DNA from: a bacterium
Lineage (GTDB): Bacteria > Patescibacteriota > Minisyncoccia > Phycocordibacterales > UBA2100
Direction: 5' to 3'
Length of the DNA: 13,419 nucleotides
Assembly: GCA_030698935.1 (NCBI GenBank)
Contig: JAUYLR010000086.1
Location: 1 to 13,419 of the forward strand
The position numbers and the translations under genes are program-made. Below are positions 1 through 13,419 of this stretch, piece by piece (within the stretch, counting starts at the first letter, position 1; every line of letters begins with the position of its first letter). The notes under the pieces are model-generated. The model saw nothing but the letters and a program-made list of their open reading frames with translations. It did not search any database and had not been told where the DNA came from.

Positions 1-120
1 GAGAAGGGTGAAGCCTCGCGAGTCAGCGTTTAGCGAATAGCGTTTAGCGAATAGTTTAGGCGTCTCCGGATTGAGTTTTTCTATACGCTTTACGCTATAC
101 GCTTTACGCTTGTATTTCAT
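1..120 (-). CDS. Pseudopilin, N-terminal fragment (runs off the left edge)
   Basis: The ATG at 120-118 opens a frame that stays open to the window edge and gives 40 residues. It begins MKYKRKAYSV and ends with SRGFTLL. The SRG|FTLL part is a class III prepilin cleavage site followed by the start of the hydrophobic helix, so this is the first part of a fourth minor pilin (pseudopilin). PilD would cut after Gly36. It starts 2 bases after the stop of the preceding pseudopilin gene, so the two are probably co-translated. The leader is unusually long and basic because it is largely encoded by two 7-bp repeat arrays (25-52 and 83-110). The leader closely resembles that of the GspH-like gene at 1459-2142: both contain AYSVKRIEK and KLFAKRYSLNA. 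Which minor pilin it is cannot be told because the body lies outside the window. The short open frame alone would be weak evidence; the leader motif and position make it convincing. Confidence 0.8.
   Translation of the reverse strand, partial: MKYKRKAYSVKRIEKLNPETPKLFAKRYSLNADSRGFTLL
25..110. repeat. Heptamer-array inverted repeat in a pseudopilin leader
   Basis: The left arm is four 7-bp units, AGCGTTT and AGCGAAT alternating (25-52). The right arm is four units, ATACGCT and TTACGCT alternating (83-110). The arms are imperfectly complementary, so the transcript could fold into a long hairpin with a spacer of 30 bases. The element lies inside the pseudopilin gene, between its start codon (120) and its cleavage site. 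The same pair of unit families recurs at 2041-2126. Confidence 0.85.
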
Positions 121-122
121 AT

Positions 123-731
123 TTATCCCACCGCGCTGCTATCCCTTACCCACCGGAAAAGGTTGTCGGAAATCGTGAAATTTCGGCTGTTAAAACCTCC
201 CGTTTGCCAGTCAACCCGTACCAAAACCGTAATTTCATCATCACCGCTTCCGGGTACAAATGTCGCCGTCACCGTGCGGGTAAAATACGTTGGGGACCAG
301 GCGGCGCTATAGCCGTACAATCCTTCGGTACTTTTACGGAGGACGGGACAGGTGCCGGAGCATGTCGTTATCAGGTCATTATTGGTCGTATCAATAGTAA
401 AGGGAGTTCCCGAAGACGGCAGTCCCGCCAACAGGTCTGTCGTGACACCGAGCGCATTTTTCAGGACGTTGCGGTCCCGCGCGTGCCGTACGGACTCAAT
501 CGCTTCCTGCGCGAGATGGAATGCCGTTATCTGGTCGCGCGCGTAATATGCACTTGAAAGGCTTTGCGTGGTGAGAGACATCGGCGCAACGATTGCTATT
601 GTAAGCAATGAAATCGCGACCATTGTTTCAATCAGCGTGAACGCTCGTGTATCGTGTATCGTGTATCGTGTATCGTGTATAGATTCGCCGATGCGGGTGA
701 AATAATTCTGCATTTTCTTTCTGAATTTCAT
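123..731 (-). CDS. PilV/PulI-like pseudopilin (minor pilin)
   Basis: This is a 202-residue prepilin. After a 30-residue leader the sequence RA|FTLIETMVAISLLTIAI gives a class III cleavage site with Glu at +5 of the mature protein and one N-terminal helix. The following AFHLAQEAIESVRHARDRN matches the conserved block of PilV/PulI-type minor pilins, and the rest is a periplasm-facing globular domain with a close Cys pair (TCSGTC). Position -1 is Ala instead of the usual Gly. The leader contains two copies of a 7-residue repeat (IHDTRYT, IHDTRAF) encoded by five CGTGTAT heptamers. I chose the ATG at 731 because it aligns with the start of the next pseudopilin upstream (MKFRKK versus MKFKKK); an in-frame ATG at 752 would add 7 residues. 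Neither has a clear Shine-Dalgarno site. The gene lies 30 bases after the preceding pseudopilin's stop and 2 bases before the next start. Minor pilins of this type prime pilus assembly. Confidence 0.85.
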   Translation of the reverse strand: MKFRKKMQNYFTRIGESIHDTRYTIHDTRAFTLIETMVAISLLTIAIVAPMSLTTQSLSSAYYARDQITAFHLAQEAIESVRHARDRNVLKNALGVTTDLLAGLPSSGTPFTIDTTNNDLITTCSGTCPVLRKSTEGLYGYSAAWSPTYFTRTVTATFVPGSGDDEITVLVRVDWQTGGFNSRNFTISDNLFRWVRDSSAVG

Positions 732-761
732 ACTTGATACAAGATACTTCATACACGATAC
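646..761. repeat. Heptamer-array inverted repeat (CGTGTAT x5)
   Basis: Five perfect tandem copies of CGTGTAT occupy 646-680. An opposing array of five 7-bp units ending in ATAC (TTCATAC, TTGATAC, AAGATAC, TTCATAC, ACGATAC) occupies 727-761. ATACACGATAC at 751-761 is the exact complement of GTATCGTGTAT in the first array. The second array holds both candidate start codons (CAT at 729-731 and 750-752) of the pseudopilin gene, and the first array ends immediately before the cleavage-site codons. Confidence 0.9.
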
Positions 762-1424
762 TTACAAGTCAAGGAGCCGCTGGACGGCTGTCGCCTGAAT
801 GTTGAACGTCGTTTTTGTTTTCAGACTTGCGGCGCCCGCGGTACCTTGTACGGTGAGAACCACCTTTGGCTGCACGGGAGAACAGGGCGACGAGGTGTCG
901 CAGCCGGGTGTCGTTCCCTGCACGTAGAACATCATGTTGTCTATGGTCACCTCCGGCGAGGTGAGCGCGGAAGCATTCAGTATTGTGCCGTTCACAGATT
1001 TATAAATCCGTTTGTCCGATGCATTGTAGAAATAAATCCACTGATCATTGGGAAGGCCAGGATCTCCTCCGAATGGTTCAAATGCGAAGAACGTGTCGCC
1101 GGTTGTCGGGCAATTTTGGACTGTCGTAATGCCGCCGGCCGACCCGCAATGGTAATTGCTGCCCATACGGATAGAACGCACCATACCGTCCAACGCGACA
1201 TTCAAATTGTTCATGACTGATTGGAGCGCCTGCGCTTTGCGGTTGGCTCCCGTCAAAGCCAAAAGCGCGCCGACCGCAACAAGCATCACGATTGCAAAAA
1301 GGCCCACAGAAACAATGAGCTCCACGAGCGTAAACGCTCGTGTATCGTGTATCGTGTATCGTGTATCGTGTATGGGACCCCGCACGCGGATCAAACTGTT
1401 TTTTTCTTTCTTTTTGAATTTCAT
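762..1424 (-). CDS. PulJ/PilW-like pseudopilin (minor pilin)
   Basis: This is a 220-residue prepilin with a 30-residue leader ending RA|FTLVELIVSVGLFAIVML. The long hydrophobic helix, the segment with NRKAQALQ and NNLNVALDGMVRSIRMG, and the Gly/Thr/Cys-rich C-terminal half fit the PulJ/PilW type of minor pilin. The leader again contains the IHDTRYT repeat encoded by five CGTGTAT heptamers, and its length equals that of the neighbouring PilV-like gene. Position -1 is Ala, not Gly. The start at 1424 lies inside a heptamer (TTCATAC on the plus strand) and has no recognisable Shine-Dalgarno site. It begins 34 bases after the stop of the GspH-like gene. The role, inferred from family and neighbours, is as part of the minor-pilin complex that starts pilus assembly at the PilC platform. 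The exact subfamily name is less certain than membership among prepilins. Confidence 0.85.
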   Translation of the reverse strand: MKFKKKEKNSLIRVRGPIHDTRYTIHDTRAFTLVELIVSVGLFAIVMLVAVGALLALTGANRKAQALQSVMNNLNVALDGMVRSIRMGSNYHCGSAGGITTVQNCPTTGDTFFAFEPFGGDPGLPNDQWIYFYNASDKRIYKSVNGTILNASALTSPEVTIDNMMFYVQGTTPGCDTSSPCSPVQPKVVLTVQGTAGAASLKTKTTFNIQATAVQRLLDL

Positions 1425-1455
1425 ACTTGATACAAGATAACTGTATACACGATAC
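1339..1455. repeat. Heptamer-array inverted repeat (CGTGTAT x5), second copy
   Basis: Five perfect CGTGTAT copies occupy 1339-1373. The opposing array at 1420-1455 (TTCATAC, TTGATAC, AAGATAA, an 8-base unit, ACGATAC) is slightly more degenerate than at 727-761. As in that copy, the opposing array holds the start codon (CAT, 1422-1424) and the perfect array abuts the cleavage-site codons. The unit number is the same in both genes. Confidence 0.9.
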
Positions 1456-1458
1456 TCT

Positions 1459-2142
1459 TTACTGAACTGATATCTGCCCCGTCGCGTCCACCACGATGCT
1501 TAAAACATCTCCGCGCGGAGATGCAACAAGAATGCGCGCGCTGTCCTGCAAGGCCGATGTACCGGGAATGCGGATGGCCGCATCCGGCTCGGGGCGTTTA
1601 TATACTATGTCAAGCTGCGAAACGGAGGCGCATGAGTATGAGTTGCTTGCGAGTTTGGTGCCGGCGGGCGCACACAGGTCCGCAATGTAATACCCGCGCC
1701 CTATCTGGTACGGCGAAGGAGAAACATTTTCAGTCGGGTCGTGACTCGGATTAAAAATCCCTGTGTTTTCCAAGTCCGCAAAGAGCACATAATTCTTGTT
1801 ATTATTCAGGTTTTTATCAAAATGCATGCCGTATCCCACGCTGAAATTATTCGCGCCGAAACCGCGCACCGATATGCCATAGACCTGCGCCTGGCGGATG
1901 GAAAGCGCGATGTCGTAGGCAAGGTTCTGAAGAAGAACCGACCCGCCATATTTGTTATTGTTTGTCAGAACGACGGAGGTGATGACAACGACGATACCCG
2001 TGACAACCATAAGCTCTATCAAAGAAAAGCCGCGGGAATGAGCGTTTAGCGAATAGCGTTTAGCGAATAGCTTAGACAGCAACAGATTGTGCTTTTCTAT
2101 ACGCTTGACGCTATACGCTATACGCTTGAATTTTACTGCCAT
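1459..2142 (-). CDS. GspH/FimT-like pseudopilin (minor pilin)
   Basis: This is a 227-residue prepilin with a 38-residue leader ending SRG|FSLIELMVVTGIVVVITS. After the helix comes LLQNLAYDIALSIRQAQVYG, the conserved block of GspH/FimT-type pseudopilins, and then a beta-rich domain with two Cys and a C-terminal ARILVASPRGDVLSI strand region. I chose the ATG at 2142 because it overlaps the pilD stop by 10 bases (stop at 2135-2133), a usual translational-coupling arrangement; the frame continues open upstream to 2631, but that part lies over pilD and has no prepilin features. The leader is longer than usual because two heptamer arrays (2041-2068 and 2099-2126) encode much of it. It keeps Gly at -1. 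By family this would be a tip or priming subunit of the pilus. Confidence 0.87.
   Translation of the reverse strand: MAVKFKRIAYSVKRIEKHNLLLSKLFAKRYSLNAHSRGFSLIELMVVTGIVVVITSVVLTNNNKYGGSVLLQNLAYDIALSIRQAQVYGISVRGFGANNFSVGYGMHFDKNLNNNKNYVLFADLENTGIFNPSHDPTENVSPSPYQIGRGYYIADLCAPAGTKLASNSYSCASVSQLDIVYKRPEPDAAIRIPGTSALQDSARILVASPRGDVLSIVVDATGQISVQ
2041..2126. repeat. Heptamer-array inverted repeat in the GspH-like leader
   Basis: The left arm is AGCGTTT, AGCGAAT, AGCGTTT, AGCGAAT (2041-2068). The right arm is ATACGCT, TGACGCT, ATACGCT, ATACGCT (2099-2126). The arms are imperfectly complementary across a 30-base spacer, and the left array is identical to that at 25-52. The element lies between the start codon (2142) and the cleavage site, and its encoded residues (FAKRYSLNA) are shared with the truncated gene at the left edge. 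Confidence 0.87.
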
Positions 2143-2999
2143 AAAAATGGAATCTGAATGCCGTACATCTGCGATACCCAAACGAGAAAACATGCAACAA
2201 CAAGAAACGGGCCGAACGGCACTTCGCTCTTCATTGTATACGATGCGGTGTGGCTGAATTGCGCTATCCCCTGTCTGCGTGCACCGCCCGCCTGCGTGCA
2301 ACGCGCGGGCAGGCACAGGCAGGCCGCTTTCTTGAAAAACCGGATGAGATGCGGCAGGGGCAAGAGGACGCATACGGAAACAACCGCTCCGATAATGAAC
2401 GCAAGCAACACCGCCTGAATCCCGTACAGCGGTCCCAAGAGCCAGCCGATGCCGAGTGCCAATTTTGAATCGCCCAACCCTATCCACCTGCCCCTTGAAA
2501 CAAGCCATAGAACAAAGAGCGGGAGCGCTACGGCGGGACCGGCAAGAACAGCCGGTAGCCAGTAGCTTGTAGCCTGTAGCGGGGAAAGGAAGATGGAAAC
2601 AAAAGCTAGCGCATTGAAACTCCAGACCCATGCATCGGGAATAACGGTATGTAATAGGTCATAGACAACAATGGCGATGAGAACCGCGCATATAAGAAGG
2701 CCGAGGACCGTCGCTACGGGCGGGAGTGACGCGCCGCCGACAAGCGCAAAAGAAATGCCCGTGGTACTTTCCACCGCCGGATATTGGAAAGATATGCGGC
2801 TGCCGCACGCGCGGCATCGGCCGCGGAGCTGTAACCACGAGAAAACGGGGATGAGGTCAAACCATGGGATTTCCTTTCCGCATGACATGCATCCGCTCCT
2901 GCCGGAAAGAGCGCGCGCTCCGGAGCGAAGCACGACAACATTTATAAAACTCCCGATGATGAGGCCGAATAATCCGAAGATTACAAAAAGCATGTGCAT
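2133..2999 (-). CDS. pilD: Prepilin peptidase PilD (A24 family, with N-methylase-type Cys domain)
   Basis: This 288-residue membrane protein cuts prepilins after the -1 residue and normally methylates the new N-terminus. Landmarks: an N-terminal helix with GSFINVVVLR (16-25); a Cys-pair domain with CMSC (37-40) and CRAC (62-65); the two catalytic Asp of A24 peptidases, Asp114 in YDLLHTVIPD and Asp177 in GLGDSKL; and the C-terminal PFGPF motif (261-265). Several membrane helices follow the usual pattern, so the enzyme looks intact. Two parts look foreign and repeat-encoded: LQATSYW (141-147) in a loop between helices, and CLCLPARCTQAGGARRQG (227-244) in the loop just before PFGPF. Neither touches a catalytic residue. 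An alternative ATG lies at 2993. The gene follows a terminator-like hairpin, and GATAAT (3002-3007) directly before the start may be a -10 element. It overlaps the GspH-like gene by 10 bases. Confidence 0.95.
   Translation of the reverse strand: MHMLFVIFGLFGLIIGSFINVVVLRSGARALSGRSGCMSCGKEIPWFDLIPVFSWLQLRGRCRACGSRISFQYPAVESTTGISFALVGGASLPPVATVLGLLICAVLIAIVVYDLLHTVIPDAWVWSFNALAFVSIFLSPLQATSYWLPAVLAGPAVALPLFVLWLVSRGRWIGLGDSKLALGIGWLLGPLYGIQAVLLAFIIGAVVSVCVLLPLPHLIRFFKKAACLCLPARCTQAGGARRQGIAQFSHTASYTMKSEVPFGPFLVVACFLVWVSQMYGIQIPFLWQ
2271..2325. repeat. GC-rich repeat read in frame inside pilD
   Basis: CTGCGTGCA occurs twice 17 bases apart (2275-2283 and 2292-2300), followed by the partly complementary GGGCAGGCACAGGCAGG. 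Together they form an imperfect inverted-repeat cluster. It is much richer in G and C than the flanks and encodes a Cys/Arg/Ala-rich segment (about residues 227-244) in the loop before the PFGPF motif. Confidence 0.65.
2555..2582. repeat. Four degenerate heptamers inside pilD
   Basis: GTAGCCA, GTAGCTT, GTAGCCT and GTAGCGG follow each other without a gap. The array is read in frame and encodes LQATSYW in the loop before the fourth or fifth helix of PilD. No complementary array is visible close by, so this may be half of an element or a worn copy. Confidence 0.75.
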
Positions 3000-3056: not shown

Positions 3057-3614
3057 TTAGGGTTTTACGTCGTAGCAACCGTCAGTGCCGGCCGAACCGC
3101 CGCATGTTATTACCCCGCCACCGGCAAAGTCCGCGGCCGAAGCCGCCGGTGTCTGTGTGGTGCCGCTGCAATTAGTGCCTGCTACGGCATCAACATCATC
3201 GGAGAGCACGCTGTTGTTCGTCACTTCCAAATTTGCGCCCAAGTGATAACTGGTACAGGTCGTCCCGCCCAAACCGGCATACGAATACGCGGTGAGCGCG
3301 CTCGGGTCCGTCGGAATTGTTGATATGTACCCGCCTGTTACCAACACGCTGCTGGCGGTAGTTCCTATAGCGGTAGGATACGTACCGTTAGAATCGTAGA
3401 AGAGTTCAAGAGCAAGTTGTAACTGCTTGATATCGGAAATCCGGCGCGCATCGCGCCCTTTTGAGCGCGCAGTGTTGAGAGACGCAAGAACGACTGACGA
3501 TAAGATTCCGATAATCGCAATAACAACCAGCAACTCAATCAGTGTGAACCCGGCACCACTTCTCTCTGAAAAGTGGTGCCGGACAAATCTCCGTATCTGG
3601 ACTCTTTTTGACAT
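3057..3614 (-). CDS. Type IV pilin (prepilin), fourth of the tandem array
   Basis: This is a prepilin of 185 residues from the ATG at 3614. AG|FTLIELLVVIAIIGILSS gives the cleavage site and helix, followed by ARSKGRDARRISDIKQLQ. YDSNGTYPT resembles the conserved loop of type IVa pilins and GspG. The C-terminal half has Cys residues that could form disulphides (CTSY, CSGT, CGGS, GCYDV). An in-frame GTG at 3626 would add four residues; neither start has a clear Shine-Dalgarno site, and I prefer ATG. The 22-residue leader contains RHHFSERSGA, encoded by a perfect hairpin at 3550-3582 that ends in the Gly(-1) codon. It is the last gene of the pilin array, 23 bases after the preceding stop. Of the four pilins it has the most classical pilin body. 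Whether it is the major subunit cannot be told from sequence alone. Confidence 0.88.
   Translation of the reverse strand: MSKRVQIRRFVRHHFSERSGAGFTLIELLVVIAIIGILSSVVLASLNTARSKGRDARRISDIKQLQLALELFYDSNGTYPTAIGTTASSVLVTGGYISTIPTDPSALTAYSYAGLGGTTCTSYHLGANLEVTNNSVLSDDVDAVAGTNCSGTTQTPAASAADFAGGGVITCGGSAGTDGCYDVKP
3550..3582. repeat. Perfect palindrome in a pilin leader
   Basis: CCGGCACCACTT (3550-3561) and AAGTGGTGCCGG (3571-3582) are exact complements over 12 bp with a 9-base loop. The palindrome lies in frame within the leader-coding part of the pilin gene and ends in the Gly codon just before the cleavage site. It does not have the 7-bp periodicity of the other leader elements. Confidence 0.92.
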
Positions 3615-3637
3615 ACGTTCAGACACTCATCTGCGTA

Positions 3638-4030
3638 CTAGGTTGTCGTGCAACCGTTTTCCGTACACGTGATTGTCTTGCTGTCACCCGTGGCGACAAA
3701 GCTGAACGACTCGCCCAACGTTGTCGTCCACGCGGTCGTGTAAGACCATGTTCCGACTGCGGGCAACGCCGGCCATGTGTACGCTGTGCCTCCGTCCGTA
3801 CATGCGGCACCGCCGGCTGTCGGCGCGACACCTGAATCCGGCGTTATCGCAATGCTGTCACCGAGACATATTGCCAACGCTCCACTGAACGACTTCAATG
3901 ACGTCTGCGCAGCGGCCACCCTGCTCTTTACCCGCGCGCTATTGAGCGAAGCCAAAACAACCGACGACAAGACTCCGATGATGGCGATAACCACCAGAAG
4001 CTCTATCAATGTAAATCCTTTATTACGCAT
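3638..4030 (-). CDS. Short type IV pilin (prepilin), third of the tandem array
   Basis: This is a 130-residue prepilin with a very short leader, MRNKG|FTLIELLVVIAIIGVLSS, and Glu at +5. The block after the helix, LASLNSARVKSRVAAAQTSL, differs from the KGRDARR block of the other three pilins. The body is small and Gly/Thr/Ala-rich with four Cys, two of them in the C-terminal TCTENGC. A second pattern, AYTWPALPAVGTWSYTTAW, is aromatic-rich and has no parallel in the neighbours. This suggests a separate pilin type, not a recent duplicate. It has its own 91-base upstream gap with an AT-rich heptamer repeat and a possible promoter. Function beyond being a secreted pilin-like subunit is not evident. 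Confidence 0.88.
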   Translation of the reverse strand: MRNKGFTLIELLVVIAIIGVLSSVVLASLNSARVKSRVAAAQTSLKSFSGALAICLGDSIAITPDSGVAPTAGGAACTDGGTAYTWPALPAVGTWSYTTAWTTTLGESFSFVATGDSKTITCTENGCTTT

Positions 4031-4036
4031 ATGTTG

Positions 4037-4057
4037 ATTAATTATTAATTATTAATT
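4037..4057. repeat. Three perfect ATTAATT heptamers
   Basis: ATTAATT is repeated three times without a gap, ending 6 bases upstream of the start codon at 4030. The unit differs from those in the leaders, but the period is again 7 bp. It coincides with the possible -10 region of the promoter at 4044-4072. Confidence 0.85.
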
Positions 4058-4121: not shown

Positions 4122-4616
4122 TCAGCTACAACCGGCTATCAAAGTACCGTTGGAAACATTGGACACTTGCACCATGCCGGCGACCGCTATTGGCCCGCCG
4201 CCCGCCTCAAGATACGCGCATACCCTGTAATCTTCCGTGGTCGCACCGGCGGCAAGGTTCGTTGAGGCTTTTCCAATGACGTAGTTGCAAACAGCTGAAG
4301 CGTTAAATGCACATGCGGCGGCGCCTGCGTCCACACCGGGGTCGGTGAACGCGCTCAGATTAAGGTTGGGTGCCGAACAACTGCTTGCAAGCGCCGTGGT
4401 ACAACCCAGGGTTGAGGGGGATGTGCCGTTGTGGGCTATGGCGATATTGTTTGCGATAGATTTCAAGTCTTCCAAGCGGCGGGCATCACGGCCTTTCTTC
4501 CGCGCAGAGGTAAGAGATGTCAAAACGACTGCAGACAGAATACCGATGATGGCAATGACAACGAGCAACTCTATGAGAGTGAAACCTTTTGTATCTGAAC
4601 TTTGTTTGAATCTCAT
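4122..4616 (-). CDS. Type IV pilin (prepilin), second of the tandem array
   Basis: This is a 164-residue prepilin: MRFKQSSDTKG|FTLIELLVVIAIIGILSA, then ARKKGRDARRLEDLKSIANN. It is a clear paralogue of the pilin at 4676-5149: they share KGRDARRLED and KSIAN, a NY-motif, AGATTE, and a similar C-terminus (LE.GGGP then AGCS or AGCP). Six Cys residues give scope for disulphides. It has a 59-base gap from the preceding stop with no strong Shine-Dalgarno site. TATACG about 6 bases before the start could be a weak -10 element, but I would not rely on it. The likely role is a structural pilin. The tandem copy suggests duplication followed by divergence of the exposed part. Confidence 0.9.
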   Translation of the reverse strand: MRFKQSSDTKGFTLIELLVVIAIIGILSAVVLTSLTSARKKGRDARRLEDLKSIANNIAIAHNGTSPSTLGCTTALASSCSAPNLNLSAFTDPGVDAGAAACAFNASAVCNYVIGKASTNLAAGATTEDYRVCAYLEAGGGPIAVAGMVQVSNVSNGTLIAGCS

Positions 4617-4675: not shown

Positions 4676-5149
4676 TCACGGGCATCCGGCTTCAACCGTC
4701 TGCGTCTCCCCGCCGATTTTTACCGGTCCGGGGGTTGCGCGCGGACCGCCTCCTACTTCAAGATTTGCACATACCACATACGTCTCAGTGGTAGCACCGG
4801 CAGTCATAACCGTATAGTTACAACCGGTTGCGGCATTGTCGGCCGAACAGGAGGTCGTTCGGGTCGTGTCAGGGTCATTAAACTTGCTGAAAACGGCAGC
4901 CGGCAGACATGTGTTTACCAAATCACCTGCCGAAACACACGTATTCAGTGCCAGGGGTTTAATCCCGGTTTGTTGTACGGCAATGGCATTTGCGATTGAT
5001 TTCATGTCCTCCAGGCGGCGGGCATCACGGCCTTTCTGGCGGGCAGTGTTAACCGCACCCAAGACAACCGTTGAAAGAATACCGATAATGGCGATTACGA
5101 CGAGAAGCTCTATCAGGGTGAATCCACGATTTCCGGTAATTTTTCTCAT
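4676..5149 (-). CDS. Type IV pilin (prepilin), first of the tandem array
   Basis: This is a 157-residue prepilin: MRKITGNRG|FTLIELLVVIAIIGILST, then ARQKGRDARRLEDMKSIANA. The body has six Cys and ends AGCP. The start at 5149 is well supported: GGAGGA lies at 5165-5160 with a 10-base spacer, and TATAAT lies at 5191-5186. An in-frame ATG further upstream at 5194 would overlap this promoter and ribosome site and add residues with no prepilin character, so I reject it. It is the first gene after the twin hairpins and has the best expression signals in the window, which suggests the most strongly expressed, and perhaps major, pilin. It is a paralogue of the next pilin (4122-4616). Confidence 0.92.
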   Translation of the reverse strand: MRKITGNRGFTLIELLVVIAIIGILSTVVLGAVNTARQKGRDARRLEDMKSIANAIAVQQTGIKPLALNTCVSAGDLVNTCLPAAVFSKFNDPDTTRTTSCSADNAATGCNYTVMTAGATTETYVVCANLEVGGGPRATPGPVKIGGETQTVEAGCP

Positions 5150-5240: not shown

Positions 5241-5296
5241 AAGCCCGTGTTATTTTGACGGAGGAATCACTCAAACCGTCAAAATAACACGGGCTT
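5241..5296 (-). terminator. Long perfect hairpin between pilC and the pilins (second of a pair)
   Basis: Arms 5241-5261 and 5276-5296 are perfectly complementary over 21 bp with a 14-base loop. No T-run follows on the minus strand, so it is not a classical Rho-independent terminator. It may be a processing or stability structure, a barrier to read-through, or part of a two-hairpin RNA. Its loop on the minus strand carries GAGTGATTC, close to the loop of the neighbouring hairpin. Confidence 0.6.
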
Positions 5297-5310: not shown

Positions 5311-5370
5311 TGAAATACCCGAGGTGAGACCTTACAGAGTCACTCCCAAGGTCTTACCTCGGGTATTTCA
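5311..5370 (-). terminator. Long hairpin overlapping the pilC stop (first of a pair)
   Basis: Arms 5311-5333 and 5348-5370 are complementary at 22 of 23 positions with a 14-base loop. The right arm includes the pilC stop codon (TGA, 5370-5368), so the hairpin starts as translation ends. No T-run follows. The minus-strand loop carries GAGTGACTC. A 14-base linker separates it from the hairpin at 5241-5296. Together they probably end or weaken transcription from the motor genes before the pilins' own promoter. Confidence 0.6.
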
Positions 5371-6583: not shown

Positions 6584-6680
6584 TTCCAATCTACGAATCA
6601 ATTCCAATCTACAAATGTCTACAAATAAACAACGCTCACATTCGTAGCCATTTGTAGTATTCGTATCATTTGCAGATTGG
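6584..6680. repeat. Inverted repeat filling the pilT-pilC gap
   Basis: CCAATCTACAAAT (6604-6616) pairs with ATTTGCAGATTGG (6668-6680) at 12 of 13 positions. Further copies of the same words (TCTACGAAT, TCTACAAAT, ATTCGTAG, ATTTGTAG, ATTCGTAT) fill the arms with an irregular period of about 9-10 bases. The element takes up nearly the whole 105-base junction. It differs in unit and period from the heptamer elements. Confidence 0.75.
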
Positions 6681-7755: not shown

Positions 7756-7801
7756 TGTACACTGTATTTTATCAAGGCAGTGGCAATATTCACACCCAAA
7801 A

Positions 7802-7900
7802 ATCCGAAGCACGAAACTCAAAAAGGTTACAGGAATTCCTTTTCTGATTTTGGATTTTGGATTTCATATTTTTTCGGATTTCGTGCTTCGGATTTAGGAT
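7802..7900. repeat. Heptamer-array inverted repeat between the regulator and pilT
   Basis: The left arm is ATCCGAA, GCACGAA (7802-7815). The right arm is TTCGGAT, TTCGTGC, TTCGGAT, TTAGGAT (7873-7900), the reverse complements of the same units. Two and a half GATTTTG-type heptamers (7846-7866) lie between. The last unit of the right arm provides the final Ser codon and the TAA stop of the receiver gene. The same unit family forms the element at 12154-12301. Confidence 0.88.
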
Positions 7901-8334
7901 TTTCTCTTTGCAATCTCTTCCTCCACGGTGTTGACAACTTCCGAAGGAATCATGGTCGCTTTTACGATGGTCTTATCCGCCCCCAGTTCCGTAATCTTTG
8001 CTTTCGCGTCATCGCCGCTCTCGTTGGTAAGCCCTATGATGGCGGCGCCCCCGCGCAGGTTCTCGGCCGCGATGGTTGTTAAAAAATAGAACCCGTCGTG
8101 CTCCGGCATAATCACATCAAACACTATCGCGTCCGGCTTGAAGCCGCCGCGAAGGGTTTTGAGCGCGTCCGAAACCGATAGGCATGCGTGCACGTCGTAC
8201 CCTTTTGCCGTGAATTTCATAACGTACATGTCAAGCAAAAACTTGTCGTCGTCTACGAGGAGAACTCCTGTCTTCGGTGCGGTGTCTGTCCCGTTAGAGG
8301 CAGGTCGCGGTCGTGTGTCTGGTTGTTGAGACAT
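7894..8334 (-). CDS. Stand-alone response-regulator receiver protein
   Basis: This 146-residue protein is a single CheY-like receiver domain without an output domain. Key residues: acidic pocket Asp28-Asp30 (LLVDDDK), phospho-acceptor Asp73 (VFDVIMPEHDG), Thr103 (GLTNES) and Lys125 (IVKATM). All are present, so phosphorylation is expected. By family it would act through protein contacts; its place between pilB and pilT suggests a role in choosing or timing extension and retraction, like PilG/PilH in other systems, but this is inference. No histidine kinase is visible in the window. Both ends are touched by repeats: residues about 5-18 (PDTRPRPASNGTDT) are encoded by a copy of the repeat at 8384-8507, and the final Ser and stop lie in the heptamer element at 7873-7900. 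An AT-rich stretch (8350-8380) lies upstream, with no clear Shine-Dalgarno site. Confidence 0.93.
   Translation of the reverse strand: MSQQPDTRPRPASNGTDTAPKTGVLLVDDDKFLLDMYVMKFTAKGYDVHACLSVSDALKTLRGGFKPDAIVFDVIMPEHDGFYFLTTIAAENLRGGAAIIGLTNESGDDAKAKITELGADKTIVKATMIPSEVVNTVEEEIAKRKS
8289..8313. repeat. Repeat copy read in frame at the N-terminus of the receiver gene
   Basis: TCCCGTTAGAGGC followed by AGGTCGCGGTCG is, in opposite orientation, nearly the same as GCGACCGCGGCCTCTAACGG in the adjacent gap (8485-8504). It encodes RPRPASNGT of the unstructured N-terminal tail, ahead of the first beta strand of the receiver domain. Confidence 0.85.
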
Positions 8335-8383: not shown

Positions 8384-8507
8384 TGCGTCCCGTTAGAAGC
8401 TTGTTCCACTATAACGTATTGTGATTTCGTTTACACTACTGCGCTTGTTCGTTTGAACCCCTGAAAGAAGGCTTCTAACGGGATGCGACCGCGGCCTCTA
8501 ACGGGAT
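8384..8507. repeat. Inverted repeat between pilB and the receiver gene
   Basis: TCCCGTTAGAAGC (8388-8400) and GCTTCTAACGGGA (8471-8483) are exact complements over 13 bp, with further outer pairing (GC at 8385-8386 with 8485-8486). A second TCTAACGGGAT (8497-8507) follows the first (8474-8484) after 23 bases. The 70-base centre shows no gene. With the copy at 8289-8313 there are four copies of the word in about 220 bases. Confidence 0.88.
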
Positions 8508-8522
8508 CTGCCATATATTTTG

Positions 8523-10262
8523 TTATGCGGTTTCTTTTTCCGCCTTTTTCTCCGCAGCGGGCGTTTCCGCGTCCTCGTCGCCCGCGAGCAGAAGAGAGCT
8601 CAATGTGTTGACTTCAGAAAACGGAATCTTCTTATCAAACGCCTTAATCATAGCATCCTCGCGCATGGTAAGCATTCCCTGCGCGCGCGCCGAGGCCCAC
8701 AATTTAGAATCAACCGGGTTATCCAGAATGATGCGTTCAATATCACTGGACATCTCCAGCACCTCAAACACCGCCATTCTTCCCCGCAAGCCCGTGGGGC
8801 ACGTCGGAGTCCGCTCCGCCTCATACGCGACTTTCGGTATTTTAAATTGATACTGCTTCGGCAGCGTGGCAATTTGCGTTTCTATGCTCTTTCTGTCGCT
8901 CGGCGTTATCTCGGATTCCTTTCCGCTGTCCGGACAGAGCGTGCGCACGAGGCGCTGCGCCATTGAAAGGACGAGTACGGGCGGGATGAGATACGGTTCC
9001 ACGCCCATGTCTATGAGGCGCGGAATCGTCCCGACCGCATCGTTCGTGTGTATCGTGGAAAGCACGAGGTGGCCGGTAAGCGCCGCTTGAAAGGCGAGCT
9101 TCGCTGTTTCGGCGTCCCGTATCTCGCCCACCATGATGACATCGGGGTCCTGACGCAGCGTGGTGCGCAAGCCTGTGGCGAAACTATAACCGATTTCGGG
9201 GCGCACCTGCGACTGCGTCACGCCTTCCACGAAATATTCTATCGGGTCCTCAAGCGAAAGAACATTTTTATGCTCCCGGTCTACTTCACCGAGCATGGAA
9301 TACAGCGTGGTGGATTTTCCGGAACCGGTGGGGCCCGAGATGAGCACGAGCCCGTGCGGTTTCCTGATGGCTTTCCGGAGGAGTTCAAGATTGCGCGGCG
9401 TGAGTCCGATTTTATCAAGAGCGATAAATCCCTGGTCGCGGTCTAAGATACGCAACACCACTTTTTCCCCGTAGTACGAGGGAAATGTGGATACGCGGAA
9501 GTCTATCTGCCGTCCGTCTATGGTAGCGGAAAAGCGCCCGTCTTGCGGTTTGCGCTGTTCGTCCAAACGGATGGAAGCGAGCACCTTCACGCGCGCGACA
9601 AGCGAGCGTTGCGCGGCCGCCGGAAGGATGACGCTGGTATGCAATTCGCCGTCTACGCGGTAGCGCACGCGCACTCCCGTGGGCAGCGGCTCTATGTGCA
9701 CGTCGCTCGCCTTCCCGTCTATCGCATACCGCAAAATGGTGGATACGATTTTTATCGTCGGCGCATCCTCCTGAATATCGGCGGAGTTCAACGCTCCTTC
9801 AATCGCTTTTATTGAAGGGTCCTCAAGGTCAAGGCTTGACATCTCTTCCTGTTGGTTTTGGGTGGCATGGGTTTTCTGTTCCCGTTCAAGGTCGGAAACC
9901 GCGCGGTCCACTTCGCCCCCCAACCCGCGATACATCTTCATGACGCGTCCGAAATCTTCTTCGGAAACCTGGAACACTTTGAACGGCATGCCGGTGCTGC
10001 GCGCAATGAAGTTGAGGGCGTCTATGCCATCCAGATTATCCGGATCCAGCATCCCGACTTCCAAAACCCCGTCTTCCACGGCCAGAGGCACGAGCTTATA
10101 GTGTTCGGCTGATTCTTCGGGAATGTGGCGCAACACATCGTACGCCACTTTCTTGTCGCCGAGCGCGCGGCGCGGCGCCGCCGTTTGCGGAGGGGTCGTA
10201 GAAACGGACGCATCCTCTGCTTGTTGCGCGTTTATCATATGAGGAACGCCGCCCGAATTCAC
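8523..10262 (-). CDS. pilB: Pilus extension ATPase PilB
   Basis: This 579-residue GspE/PilB-type ATPase drives pilin polymerisation. An N-terminal MshEN-like domain (about 35-115) is followed by a charged linker and the ATPase core: ASDVHIEP (185-192), Walker A GPTGSGKST (310-318), Asp box SLEDPIEY (336-343), Walker B VIMVGEIRD (375-383), His box TGHLVLSTIHTND (396-408). The zinc site of PilB/GspE, normally two CxxC pairs, is reduced to one Cys at each place (Cys443 in LCPDSG, Cys488 in TCPTGLRGR), so zinc binding is doubtful. The C-terminus is a short Glu/Lys/Ala-rich tail. The start may be the GTG at 10262, which overlaps the preceding stop by 4 bases, or the ATG at 10238; neither has a good Shine-Dalgarno site. 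Coupling to the pilP-like gene is likely. Confidence 0.96.
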   Translation of the reverse strand: MNSGGVPHMINAQQAEDASVSTTPPQTAAPRRALGDKKVAYDVLRHIPEESAEHYKLVPLAVEDGVLEVGMLDPDNLDGIDALNFIARSTGMPFKVFQVSEEDFGRVMKMYRGLGGEVDRAVSDLEREQKTHATQNQQEEMSSLDLEDPSIKAIEGALNSADIQEDAPTIKIVSTILRYAIDGKASDVHIEPLPTGVRVRYRVDGELHTSVILPAAAQRSLVARVKVLASIRLDEQRKPQDGRFSATIDGRQIDFRVSTFPSYYGEKVVLRILDRDQGFIALDKIGLTPRNLELLRKAIRKPHGLVLISGPTGSGKSTTLYSMLGEVDREHKNVLSLEDPIEYFVEGVTQSQVRPEIGYSFATGLRTTLRQDPDVIMVGEIRDAETAKLAFQAALTGHLVLSTIHTNDAVGTIPRLIDMGVEPYLIPPVLVLSMAQRLVRTLCPDSGKESEITPSDRKSIETQIATLPKQYQFKIPKVAYEAERTPTCPTGLRGRMAVFEVLEMSSDIERIILDNPVDSKLWASARAQGMLTMREDAMIKAFDKKIPFSEVNTLSSLLLAGDEDAETPAAEKKAEKETA

Positions 10263-11404: not shown

Positions 11405-12142
11405 CTATGGTTGCTTGGCCGGCTGCGAGGGGAAAAATCCTGACGGTTGAACGGCGGCCGGTGCCGGAGACGCTGATGGCGTTGATGATGCCGGAGATGG
11501 TGCGAATGCCGGCGCAGCCGGTATCGGCGCGATGCTTCCGGCCGCATTCCCGGACGCCGTTACCAGTTGCGCATAACGGATTGCGGCGGGATTTACGAGC
11601 GCGGAAAAACTGAAGTGCACCCCGTCTGACTGCCGGTCAATATCGGAAAATATCGGGCTCGTTATGATGCCGACCTTGCTGAAAAAGTCCGCCTGCAGGG
11701 CGATGGAGTTCACGCTTCTGGCGATTCCCTGCATTTTTATCGCCATACCCTCGTCGCTTGACGCCTGAAACTCAAGAGAGCGGAATGAAACCGTGCTCAA
11801 TGTATTTGCTTCAAGCATGTGAAAGAAAACGGACGGGGCAATGTGGCTGCCCAACACGAGGTCCGCATCCCGCATTCTGTCGTCAAGCCGTGAAAATTCC
11901 TGAATGAGCAGCGGGTCAAACTGCGCTTTTGCGATTTTCAGCTGATTAACTTTGCTCTTGCTGCTCGTGTCCAGATATTGCTCGTACAGGAACACTCCCG
12001 CCGCAAGAGCAACGGACGCGACCAGAAGGACGATTGAAACGAGCGCGACGAGGTCCATGAGCGTATTCTCGTGCCTGCGCCCCGCCTCTGCGGGCTGCGA
12101 AACATCGTGCGGTATGAATGTATTTTGTACGCCGGTTTCCAT
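11405..12142 (-). CDS. pilN: PilN-like alignment protein
   Basis: This 245-residue protein has a short cytoplasmic N-terminus with NTFIPHD (7-13) where classical PilN has INLLP, the segment that binds PilM. One membrane helix (about 29-53) and a PilN-type domain with SRLDDRM and SVFFHMLEANTLSTVSFRSL (104-123) follow, then a Pro/Ala/Ser-rich tail from about 200 to the end that looks disordered. Position directly after pilM and before pilO supports the call. The tail is unusual for the family and may cross or interact with the cell wall, which is inference. The ATG at 12142 is next to a heptamer element that fills the gap to pilM, and no Shine-Dalgarno site is visible. Confidence 0.85.
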   Translation of the reverse strand: METGVQNTFIPHDVSQPAEAGRRHENTLMDLVALVSIVLLVASVALAAGVFLYEQYLDTSSKSKVNQLKIAKAQFDPLLIQEFSRLDDRMRDADLVLGSHIAPSVFFHMLEANTLSTVSFRSLEFQASSDEGMAIKMQGIARSVNSIALQADFFSKVGIITSPIFSDIDRQSDGVHFSFSALVNPAAIRYAQLVTASGNAAGSIAPIPAAPAFAPSPASSTPSASPAPAAVQPSGFFPSQPAKQP

Positions 12143-12153
12143 GGTATTTAAAA

Positions 12154-12301
12154 ATCCGAAGCACGAAGCACGAAATCCGAAAAGTGTGGGAAATTACAAA
12201 TTCTAAATTCAAAACGAGCGTTGATTTCTTTGTTTCTTGCAATTATTTTTTGGTTTCTCATATTTATTATCTTTTCGGATTTCGTGCTTCGGATTTCGAA
12301 T
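12154..12301. repeat. Heptamer-array inverted repeat filling the pilM-pilN gap
   Basis: The left arm is ATCCGAA, GCACGAA, GCACGAA, ATCCGAA (12154-12181). The right arm is TTCGGAT, TTCGTGC, TTCGGAT, TTCGAAT (12274-12301), the reverse complement pattern. The AT-rich centre is 92 bases long with no gene. The right arm ends directly at the pilM stop codon (12302-12304). The family is the same as at 7802-7900. Confidence 0.9.
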
Positions 12302-13419
12302 TTACCCTTGTTTGAGATTCCGCAACGCAAGACCGACGGCAACGGCAAAACCGGGACCTATCTGCCCCAGAACGCCTCTTAAAAATGCGGGCGCCTCCGA
12401 ATGCGAAAACGGGTTTGCGATTTCCACATCCGCATGCAATGACTGCTTGGCACGCTCCGACAGGCCTGGGAGAGATGCCCCTCCTCCGGTCAAGAGAACA
12501 TGCGATACATTTTTGTTGTACCGCTGCCCGTAGCTTAATAATACTCGGTCTATCTCGGAAAACACACGGGTGAGTGTTGATAACAATGCCGTCTGTATCC
12601 TGTCGTTCTCGTCCGCGCTGTACGCGCTTGAACTGACAAGCCCGATTTCCCTCTTTACGCGCTCCGCTTTCTCAAATTCCCATGAGAGCGAGCGCGCGAG
12701 CGTATCTGTCGTCTGCTGGCCGCCGGAGGTCAAGAGGTGCGTCAGGCGCACAACCCCGCGCTCTACTATGTACATCTTCGTTGTTGCGGCGCCGAGGTCA
12801 ACAACCAAAACGGGAGCCGCGCCATGCCCCATGGAGGAACGCGTGACGCTGAAAATTTCTATCTCGTAGAAATTCACGTTGAGGCCGGTGGTTTCTGCGA
12901 TTTTCTGATAGTCGCGGAGAATGTCATTATGAATGGCGACGAGGAGAATTTCCTGCATCTTCGCGTGAATCGGTTTCGGAGCCTCCACCTGGTCAAACGC
13001 GCTTTCACCCTGTTCTTCCTGCGGTATGACAAACCAATCAAGGGAAACTTCCGACACGGGTATCGGAATATATTTGCGCGCCTCTATCGGAACCATTCTC
13101 TTCAGGGAATCTTTGTCCACTTTCGGCATTTCAAGTATGGAAACAAGGCTTGCGGAAAACGGTATGGATAGTCCGCCCGTCCGGCCGGTCACATTCGCCT
13201 CGCGAATCAGGTCCGTCAACGCTTCGGCGATTTTCTCGGGAGTGAGTTTGACGGCTTTGCCCACGCTCTGTCCCCCATACGGACCGAGAGCGATTTCCCC
13301 GTAGGTTTCAAGAATCGCCGTACCGTGTGATGCGCGCAACTGCACAATTTTTGCGGATGATGCGCCGATGTCAATGCCTATAATGCTCCCCTCGGATTTC
13401 CCGCCGAAAGCGGAGCCGA
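12302..13419 (-). CDS. pilM: Actin-like ATPase PilM (5' end outside the window)
   Basis: The frame is open to the window edge and gives 371 residues. It begins in GGKSEG and then shows the phosphate-1 motif IGIDIGASSAKIVQL (13-27), so the real start is only a few codons beyond the edge; the internal GTG at 13345 would remove this motif. Other actin-fold marks are VVDLGAATTKMYIVERG (205-221, phosphate-2) and LLTGGGASLPGL (308-319, adenosine site). PIEARKYIPIPVSEV (110-124) is typical of PilM. By family the protein forms a cytoplasmic ring under the membrane that binds the N-terminus of PilN and contacts the motors. It opens the operon visible here; any promoter lies outside. Confidence 0.96.
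   Translation of the reverse strand, partial: GSAFGGKSEGSIIGIDIGASSAKIVQLRASHGTAILETYGEIALGPYGGQSVGKAVKLTPEKIAEALTDLIREANVTGRTGGLSIPFSASLVSILEMPKVDKDSLKRMVPIEARKYIPIPVSEVSLDWFVIPQEEQGESAFDQVEAPKPIHAKMQEILLVAIHNDILRDYQKIAETTGLNVNFYEIEIFSVTRSSMGHGAAPVLVVDLGAATTKMYIVERGVVRLTHLLTSGGQQTTDTLARSLSWEFEKAERVKREIGLVSSSAYSADENDRIQTALLSTLTRVFSEIDRVLLSYGQRYNKNVSHVLLTGGGASLPGLSERAKQSLHADVEIANPFSHSEAPAFLRGVLGQIGPGFAVAVGLALRNLKQG

Follow-up and report, generated by a model that had tools for sequence, protein, structure and literature searches.

Palindromes of 7-base units occupy the leader-coding region of minor pseudopilin genes in a patescibacterial genus, probably as tolerated members of a genome-wide repeat pool

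The window analysed here is the whole 13,419-nucleotide (nt) stretch of contig JAUYLR010000086.1 (NCBI GenBank assembly GCA_030698935.1; Patescibacteriota, Minisyncoccia, Phycocordibacterales, UBA2100), which is contig C108 of the source genome (G000, 69% complete). Its minus strand carries, in this order, pilM, pilB, a response regulator gene, pilT, pilC, four major-type pilin genes, pilD and four minor pseudopilin genes; these identities rest on Pfam matches for 10 window proteins, with PF07963 for seven pilin-like genes. Four palindromic elements built of 7-base units (heptamers) lie at the fronts of the minor pseudopilin genes:

1..120, minus strand: minor pseudopilin gene, start only (leader and FTLL), cut by the contig end; identified by reading the sequence, such genes being present in relatives
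25..110, minus strand: heptamer palindrome of the AGCG family in the leader of this cut gene (RG/FTLL); arrays 25-54 and 81-110
123..752, minus strand: minor pseudopilin gene (PF07963)
646..761, minus strand: heptamer palindrome of the GTAT/ATACACG family over the start and leader of gene 123-752; arrays 645-680 and 730-761
762..1424, minus strand: minor pseudopilin gene (PF07963), first row of alignment A1
1339..1455, minus strand: heptamer palindrome of the GTAT/ATACACG family over the start and leader of gene 762-1424; arrays 1338-1373 and about 1422-1455
1459..2142, minus strand: minor pseudopilin gene (PF07963), its ATG overlapping the end of pilD
2041..2126, minus strand: heptamer palindrome of the AGCG family that takes up the leader of gene 1459-2142; arrays 2097-2126 (outer) and about 2036-2071 (inner)

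Each element is made of two opposing heptamer arrays with a spacer between them, in the place given by an original prediction made from the letters alone, and forms the leader of a minor pseudopilin in the reading frame of the gene. The prepilin peptidase PilD cuts prepilin leaders just before F. Read in the coding direction, the outer array is at or close to the start codon, and the inner array, which opposes it, stops short of the F codon by 3 nt in genes 123-752 and 762-1424 and by 12 nt in genes 1459-2142 and 1-120; in the FSLIEL of gene 1459-2142 this codon is at 2028-2026. The predicted ending within a few codons of the cleavage site also holds. The prediction had spoken of all four pseudopilin genes, which is correct for the four minor ones; the window, however, holds eight prepilin-like genes, and the four of major type are without the element. 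The heptamer CGTGTATCGTGTAT occurs eight times in the window and at most 0 times across 200 shuffles, so that chance is excluded for the GTAT family. As coding-strand hairpins, the four elements fold with -29.6 to -35.6 kcal/mol (z -4.5 to -5.7), and none of 200 shuffles of each was equally stable. Elements 25-110 and 2041-2126 are 87% similar, elements 646-761 and 1339-1455 81%, and another genome (G062; genomes are numbered G and loci L) carries a leader nearly identical to that of element 25-110.

Matches to the AGCG- and GTAT-family elements are found at further sites of the source genome. Most of the 18 such sites that we read lie between genes or at gene ends and two inside called genes (L220:4047-4076, L222:1083-1105); at one, 3' of the last pseudopilin and 5' of a DNA-ligase-like gene, the stop codon forms part of the array. 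Palindromic heptamer elements also occupy the leaders of two more prepilin-like genes of the source genome (L021, contig C12, 4705-4831 and 7261-7363), one of GVTLID type and the other of GSIIMLV type, the latter assigned to the prepilins by our own reading. Positions 1-72 of another source contig (C77, L216) encode a pseudopilin start nearly identical to window 1-72 with differing codons, which suggests that strain variation at the repeat broke the assembly here.

The period of seven stands out in the genus. We searched 966 kb, made up for the most part of pilin loci and random stretches, for a 4-mer returning in step; period 7 gave 123 places with four or more occurrences, and each of the periods 5, 6 and 8-15 gave 0-4. 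A lag-match search gave 92 arrays at period 7, 67 at the double period of 14 and 0-6 at each other period from 4 to 13. An opposing partner (score at least 12, within 170 nt) accompanies 39 of the 92 arrays; in the control, where each array was tried at up to 20 random places, 12% had one at any of them. By this rule, over half of the arrays are without a clear partner. Array density per 100 kb was 11.1 in 20 source-genome contigs, 2.2 in 20 long stretches from five relatives and 15.6 in 31 pilin loci; without contig C12, the source genome gave 10 arrays in 106.9 kb. Five other families of the order, sampled over 200 kb, show few period-7 arrays (four by the 4-mer rule). The impression, gained by eye, that the unit is a conserved 4-base core with three free bases was rejected: the mismatch share was 0.418 against 0.407 by chance (421 windows), and in a second test the mean was 0.93 against 0.78, yet none of 21 arrays was significant.

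Far from being a pilin speciality, the repeats belong to gene junctions in general and come in many unit families. We placed 209 arrays in 89 loci (1.258 Mb), with gene calls and motif rules from our own scripts and gene starts from our own caller. The 39 loci chosen without regard to pilins (507 kb, 52 arrays; C12 is left out since it was picked for a PF07963 match) hold 28 arrays in co-directional gaps (41.0 kb), 6 in divergent gaps (18.0 kb), 5 in convergent gaps (9.6 kb) and 4 in contig-edge gaps, and, in coding sequence, 6 in interiors (330 kb), 1 in the first 40 codons (51.7 kb), 1 in the last 15 codons, 1 in a prepilin leader (495 bp) and 0 in mature prepilin sequence (3 kb). Per 10 kb this is 6.8 for co-directional, 5.2 for convergent and 3.3 for divergent gaps, 0.19 for the first 40 codons and 0.18 for interiors; with C12 (517 kb) there are four leader arrays instead of one. 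Elements at co-directional junctions fit between the genes, with a median start 9 nt past the stop codon and a median end 12 nt before the next start (n = 58, ten contigs picked for window-element matches included).

In the pilin loci, the leader joins the junction as a major site. Their 149 arrays comprise 71 in co-directional gaps (61.7 kb), 56 in prepilin leaders (10.7 kb), 9 in coding interiors (441 kb), 4 in the first 40 codons of other genes (73 kb), 1 in the last 15 codons (27 kb) and 8 in other gaps; mature prepilin sequence contains none in 94 kb, and none in about 100 kb over all loci. The densities per 10 kb are 52.6 for leaders, 11.5 for co-directional gaps, 0.54 for the first 40 codons of other genes, 0.20 for interiors and 0 for mature prepilins.

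Counted by gene, 36 of 105 minor prepilins have an array wholly within their N-terminal coding part, as have 2 of 81 major prepilins, 0 of 177 Sec-like genes and 2 of 808 others. All non-prepilin genes together amount to 2 of 985. The Fisher p for these counts is 3e-37, genomes and paralogues not being fully independent. One of the two exceptions probably has a miscalled start (a nucleoside diphosphate kinase-like protein), and the other (L019) is an unplaced frame. A search with A1, the alignment of pseudopilin 762-1424, finds matches in 45 of 52 genomes of the genus, the source genome included. The comparison across related genomes that the original prediction had asked for came out strongly in favour of a leader preference at gene starts, arrays being far from equally common inside other gene starts. 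As repeats enter gene fronts almost only in the minor-prepilin leader, this leader has the look of a place where they can land safely. With a narrower prepilin motif, the count was 26 of 79 prepilins against 18 of 815 co-directional genes, and on reading, 13 of these 18 look like prepilins that the motif missed; a further count gave 37 of 121 minor prepilins in 18 of 45 genomes and 1 of 86 major ones, and a broader motif 47 of 147 minor prepilins in 20 of 45 genomes. These counts differ because their sets and rules differ, the figure of 36 in 105 demanding an array wholly inside the called frame. The duplicate L068 and L071-L122 are excluded from the 26/79, 36/105, genome-level, 507-kb, 58-element junction, 421-window and unit-sharing counts; L142-L235 from the 36/105 and genome-level counts; L142 onward from the 507-kb counts and the 7/36, 42/262, 64/467 and 241/3538 pairs given below; and L142-L215 and L226-L235 from the 58 junction elements, the 421 windows and the 8/41 and 68/373 pairs.

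Further loci, 74 in number, were fetched by name, and in 16 of them the end of an array lies no more than 75 nt from a prepilin cleavage site. Besides members of the genus, these include loci labelled Yonathbacteria (L176), Paceibacterota (L157), Patescibacteria (L153), Parcubacteria (L208, L209), bacterium (L165) and Scalindua (L214). Spread across phyla was considered and dropped: the Scalindua-labelled locus has a leader array, but the locus is so close in sequence to L209 that misbinning is possible. In L201, L206, L209, L211, L214 and L236-L265, arrays accompany 4 of 51 prepilin-like genes (three in L209, one in L214).

The enzyme expected to remove the leaders and the pilins without an element lie next to the minor genes:

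2133..2999, minus strand: prepilin peptidase PilD (PF06750 and PF01478), which would remove the leaders
3057..3626, 3638..4030, 4122..4616 and 4676..5149, minus strand: four major-type pilin genes without a leader element

An ATTAATT array at 4037-4057 stands immediately 5' of the ATG of the major-type pilin 3638-4030.

The elements are probably translated. The open frame of the mature protein runs through each of the 37 leader arrays analysed; among 77 arrays that end just upstream of other starts, 30 are in such a frame. The frame stays open over 100 nt in 32 of 37 leaders against 8 of 77 controls. An ATG lies upstream of the inner array in all 37, in 23 of them within 20 nt of the outermost detected array. 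The true start codon could instead lie downstream of the element, which would then be plain intergenic DNA; a possible start is present within the inner array in 5 of the 37 leaders and after it in 3. We regard this as very improbable, since 30 of 37 leaders have no ATG, GTG or TTG at or beyond the inner array and the frame is open far more often than in the controls.

The comparison of strains with and without the element, which the original prediction had called for, is available in two pairs of relatives. Between G005 and G006, which share 87% amino-acid identity in one pseudopilin, the orthologous leaders are MGDRG in G005 and MAKGKRQKARVRNERG in G006, and a second pseudopilin pair has MKKG against a 37-residue leader; between G046 and G044, 87% identical in one pseudopilin, two genes likewise show an empty leader in G046 and a filled one in G044. 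In these four, the clear cases, the additional sequence sits after the start codon and before the codons preceding F. The short empty alleles lend no support to the idea that the spacer is the original leader bracketed by the arms. G000 and G023 (66% identical) have the element 1339-1455 in common as orthologues. Its inner units are ATACACG in G000 and ATACGCG in G023, so that arrays are made uniform again within lineages.

The units at the leader site vary from genome to genome (GTAT and AGCG types, AACAGGC, ACCTAAA, AGAACAG, CAGCTTT, AATTTTC and others), and the leaders are not conserved as proteins with the DNA repeat a mere by-product. Other repeats take the same place: in G014 a long palindrome (score 26, z 15), and in G041, G042 and G061 the sequence CCCCTTA(T/C)CACTTTT together with its reverse complement. 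The latter is a separate element with inverted ends, which in several pseudopilins stops at or 3 nt before the glycine codon preceding the cleavage site (L117 in G041, L119 in G061, L120 in G042). Another G014 gene (L009, cleavage site at 9407, minus strand) has three tandem copies of the cleavage region, SVSRGFTL...SVSRGFTL...SVSRG/FTLIEM, which, judging from the sequence, would offer several candidate PilD sites. Some of the long leaders that are without heptamers show no palindrome either.

Leader and junction elements draw on one pool of units. Within a genome, units are shared by 7 of 36 leader-leader pairs and by 42 of 262 leader-junction pairs (p 0.63), or by 8 of 41 and 68 of 373 when the ten contigs picked for window-element matches are included; since leader-leader sharing is no higher, copying among paralogous leaders was rejected as the main source. 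Alternatively, the arrays may arise in situ, by slippage and template switching in unconstrained DNA, with no mobile element and at a rate that varies by genome. This would suit the lineage-wise uniformity of the arrays, all ATACACG in the inner array of G000 and all ATACGCG in the orthologous G023 leader, and a hypothesis tying heptamer excess to polymerase slippage is reported in the accessible part of PMC4692102. It would also suit the repair genes: MutS_V has no match in the 52 same-genus genomes, while 11 of 14 control genomes match, and thus MutS-type mismatch repair seems absent. This absence may ease slippage; being uniform, it cannot explain the differences between array-rich and array-free genomes. 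Moreover, many sites within one genome carry members of the same unit families, a few of them with similar spacers as well, and junction elements share units more often within a genome (64/467 pairs) than between genomes (241/3538). We therefore consider an origin by slippage alone improbable.

Two candidate movers were tried and rejected. Y1 transposase matches are present in 45 of the 52 same-genus genomes, with none in G000. At the 22 Y1 loci read (two pairs overlapping), a lax 3-copy rule places 10 arrays, spread over 6 of the loci. The gene in L091 has one such array 47 nt upstream of it, and two palindrome pairs lie at least several hundred nt away. No heptamer palindrome stands directly beside a Y1 gene at these 22 loci, as the flanking arrangement of repetitive extragenic palindromes (REP) and their REP-associated tyrosine transposases (RAYT) would have it. 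Y1 counts correlate with array density weakly though nominally significantly (Spearman 0.35, p 0.037), and Y1 matches are still present in 10 of the 14 genomes without other arrays. Reverse transcriptase is uncorrelated with array density (0.06).

How full the leaders are depends on the genome. Across 36 genomes, the filled fraction of minor leaders follows the array density elsewhere in the genome (Spearman 0.82, p 1e-9): in the 14 genomes where no other array was found in the sampled sequence (9-130 kb per genome, genomes under 9,000 bp excluded, so that this is no statement on whole genomes), the filled leaders number 0 of 48, against 41 of 67 in the other 22. A common pool with a tolerant site predicts this link, whereas a required pilin regulator is hard to square with it. 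It is conceivable that the hairpins are kept as translational dampers, a stem near the start codon lowering minor pseudopilin translation relative to the major pilin; any palindrome would do, and the unit sequences would be free to change. Minor pilins are needed in small amounts, and the elements are indeed strong hairpins spanning start and leader, present in the minor pseudopilins and nearly absent from the major pilins (2/81); unrelated palindromes have the same geometry at the same place, all scored leaders are filled in 7 of the 36 genomes, and the share of filled leaders exceeds that of ordinary junctions with an array. We nevertheless find this rather unlikely, given the wholly unfilled leaders of the 14 genomes, the dependence of occupancy on array density, filled leaders with a single array (G006) and the unit pool common to leaders and junctions. 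The differing units, the other palindromes at the same site and the occupancy that tracks density favour a tolerated landing site over a pilin regulator. Thus, where the original prediction left a choice between a safe site for a spreading repeat and elements kept as regulators, the first is favoured, and the second is unsupported because the leaders of the 14 genomes are empty.

We propose the following as the probable explanation: the window elements come from a genome-wide pool of palindromes of 7-base units, found mostly at gene junctions, and the disposable leader of minor pilins tolerates them. Elements of the pool would settle chiefly at co-directional junctions, between one stop codon and the next start. 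The minor pseudopilin genes are nearly gapless, their stop and start codons touching or almost touching; since there is almost no gap, the only expendable DNA would be that from the start codon to the prepilin-peptidase site. An insertion there would leave the ribosome site and start codon in place, and the repeat would be translated in frame. PilD would then discard the repeat-derived leader, leaving the mature protein unchanged. The repeats would move as units and be carried neutrally. A wider version, in which prepilin leaders are a standing repeat refuge in compact genomes, several unrelated palindromes, heptameric and other, have entered this one disposable segment in many lineages and some may have been co-opted as sequence-independent hairpins setting the dose of minor pseudopilins, is possible, and we hold it only tentatively.

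Several observations weigh against the tolerated-leader explanation. First, major-pilin leaders are spared (2/81) though PilD should cut them too, so leader cleavage alone is not the reason and tolerance depends on more; perhaps operon position or expression level lies behind the sparing. Second, leaders are filled (36/105) beyond the rate at which arrays lie within 150 nt upstream of other co-directional, non-prepilin genes (61/815), which could also mean a benefit. Third, 15 of the 209 arrays lie within coding interiors by our own gene calls, one of them in pilD, so that coding sequence outside leaders is not wholly barred. Fourth, no array lies in the 177 Sec-like n-regions; Sec signals may tolerate long extensions less well. 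Fifth, no transposase was identified for the elements, no target-site duplication is evident by eye in the four filled and empty alignments, whose flanks have diverged, and a third G044/G046 gene pair aligns poorly upstream, with neither an empty nor a filled state seen. The counts also take related genomes and paralogues as independent.

Copies and other repeats are found elsewhere in the window:

7800..7903, no strand assigned: related heptamer-type palindrome (AAATCCGAAGCACGAA...), gene-junction copy between the response regulator gene and pilT
12151..12303, no strand assigned: palindrome of the same family, gene-junction copy between pilM and gene 11405-12142
11405..12142: gene neighbouring pilM
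12302..13345: pilM

Further junctions of the window hold different repeats (5241-5296, 5311-5370, 6600-6665 and 8385-8486): two perfect or near-perfect hairpins (AAGCCCGTGTTATTTTGACGG; TGAAATACCCGAGGTGAGACCTT) at and beyond the end of pilC, 10-base repeats in the pilC-pilT gap and a 16-nt inverted repeat in the gap between the response regulator gene and pilB. A lone heptamer array of TAGCCTG type lies in the middle of pilD (2550-2580), and the G023 gene directly upstream of the first pseudopilin, in the place expected for pilD (L014:8187-8996), also has an interior array.

The leaders clearly exemplify how repeats can get into coding sequence at a point where the product encoded by them is probably discarded, and alleles with and without the repeat are available for study. 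In practice, annotated pilin leaders and start codons in these genomes may be repeat-derived. The question of heptamer excess in bacteria also becomes testable, as one genus includes array-rich species and species where none was found. Our search, which left most subscription literature outside, found, among the matches listed, no prior report of a leader preference or of such repeats in these bacteria.

Rickettsia palindromic elements (RPE) reportedly have counterparts in Wolbachia. RPE are 105-146 bp long and dispersed, lying between genes and in frame inside genes (accessible part of PMC2229807). The elements here are likewise palindromic, dispersed, intergenic and in frame, and their size of 86-117 nt, hairpin fold and genome dispersal agree with the Rickettsia type of palindrome of roughly 100-150 bp. 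They differ in that entry at gene starts is confined to a leader expected to be cut off, and in their heptamer arrays, which the accessible part of PMC2229807 does not describe for RPE. For in-frame insertion inside conserved proteins with the insert kept in the product, as in RPE, the counts here are no array in the mature prepilin sequence, 2 of 985 other gene starts and 15 of 209 arrays in coding interiors as placed by our own gene calls. The REP/RAYT systems resemble the present case in their short intergenic palindromes (accessible part of PMC3733652) and in the Y1 matches of the genus, and differ in the Y1 flanks described above; REP palindromes have a GTAG or CGTC tag at one end. The heptameric repeats of Calothrix, Nostoc and Xanthomonas also show heptamer excess between genes; their units are few and mostly G-rich, with no leader preference described in the accessible part of PMC4692102. 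A 7-base unit is also found in the TAACTGA repeats of Beggiatoaceae, Cyanobacteria and Bacteroidetes, which lie mostly a few bases upstream of start codons, their in-frame cases being mostly at protein ends (accessible part of PMC4679880); the unit of one G065 leader, AGTTATC, is TAACTGA on the opposite strand, rotated. As in these short tandemly repeated repetitive (STRR) sequences, the unit here is a 7-base tandem with other periods rare. However, in the TAACTGA type one fixed unit is repeated directly, and the same source has just one indirect case, whereas the elements described here have many units, often in opposing arrays, and enter the prepilin leader.

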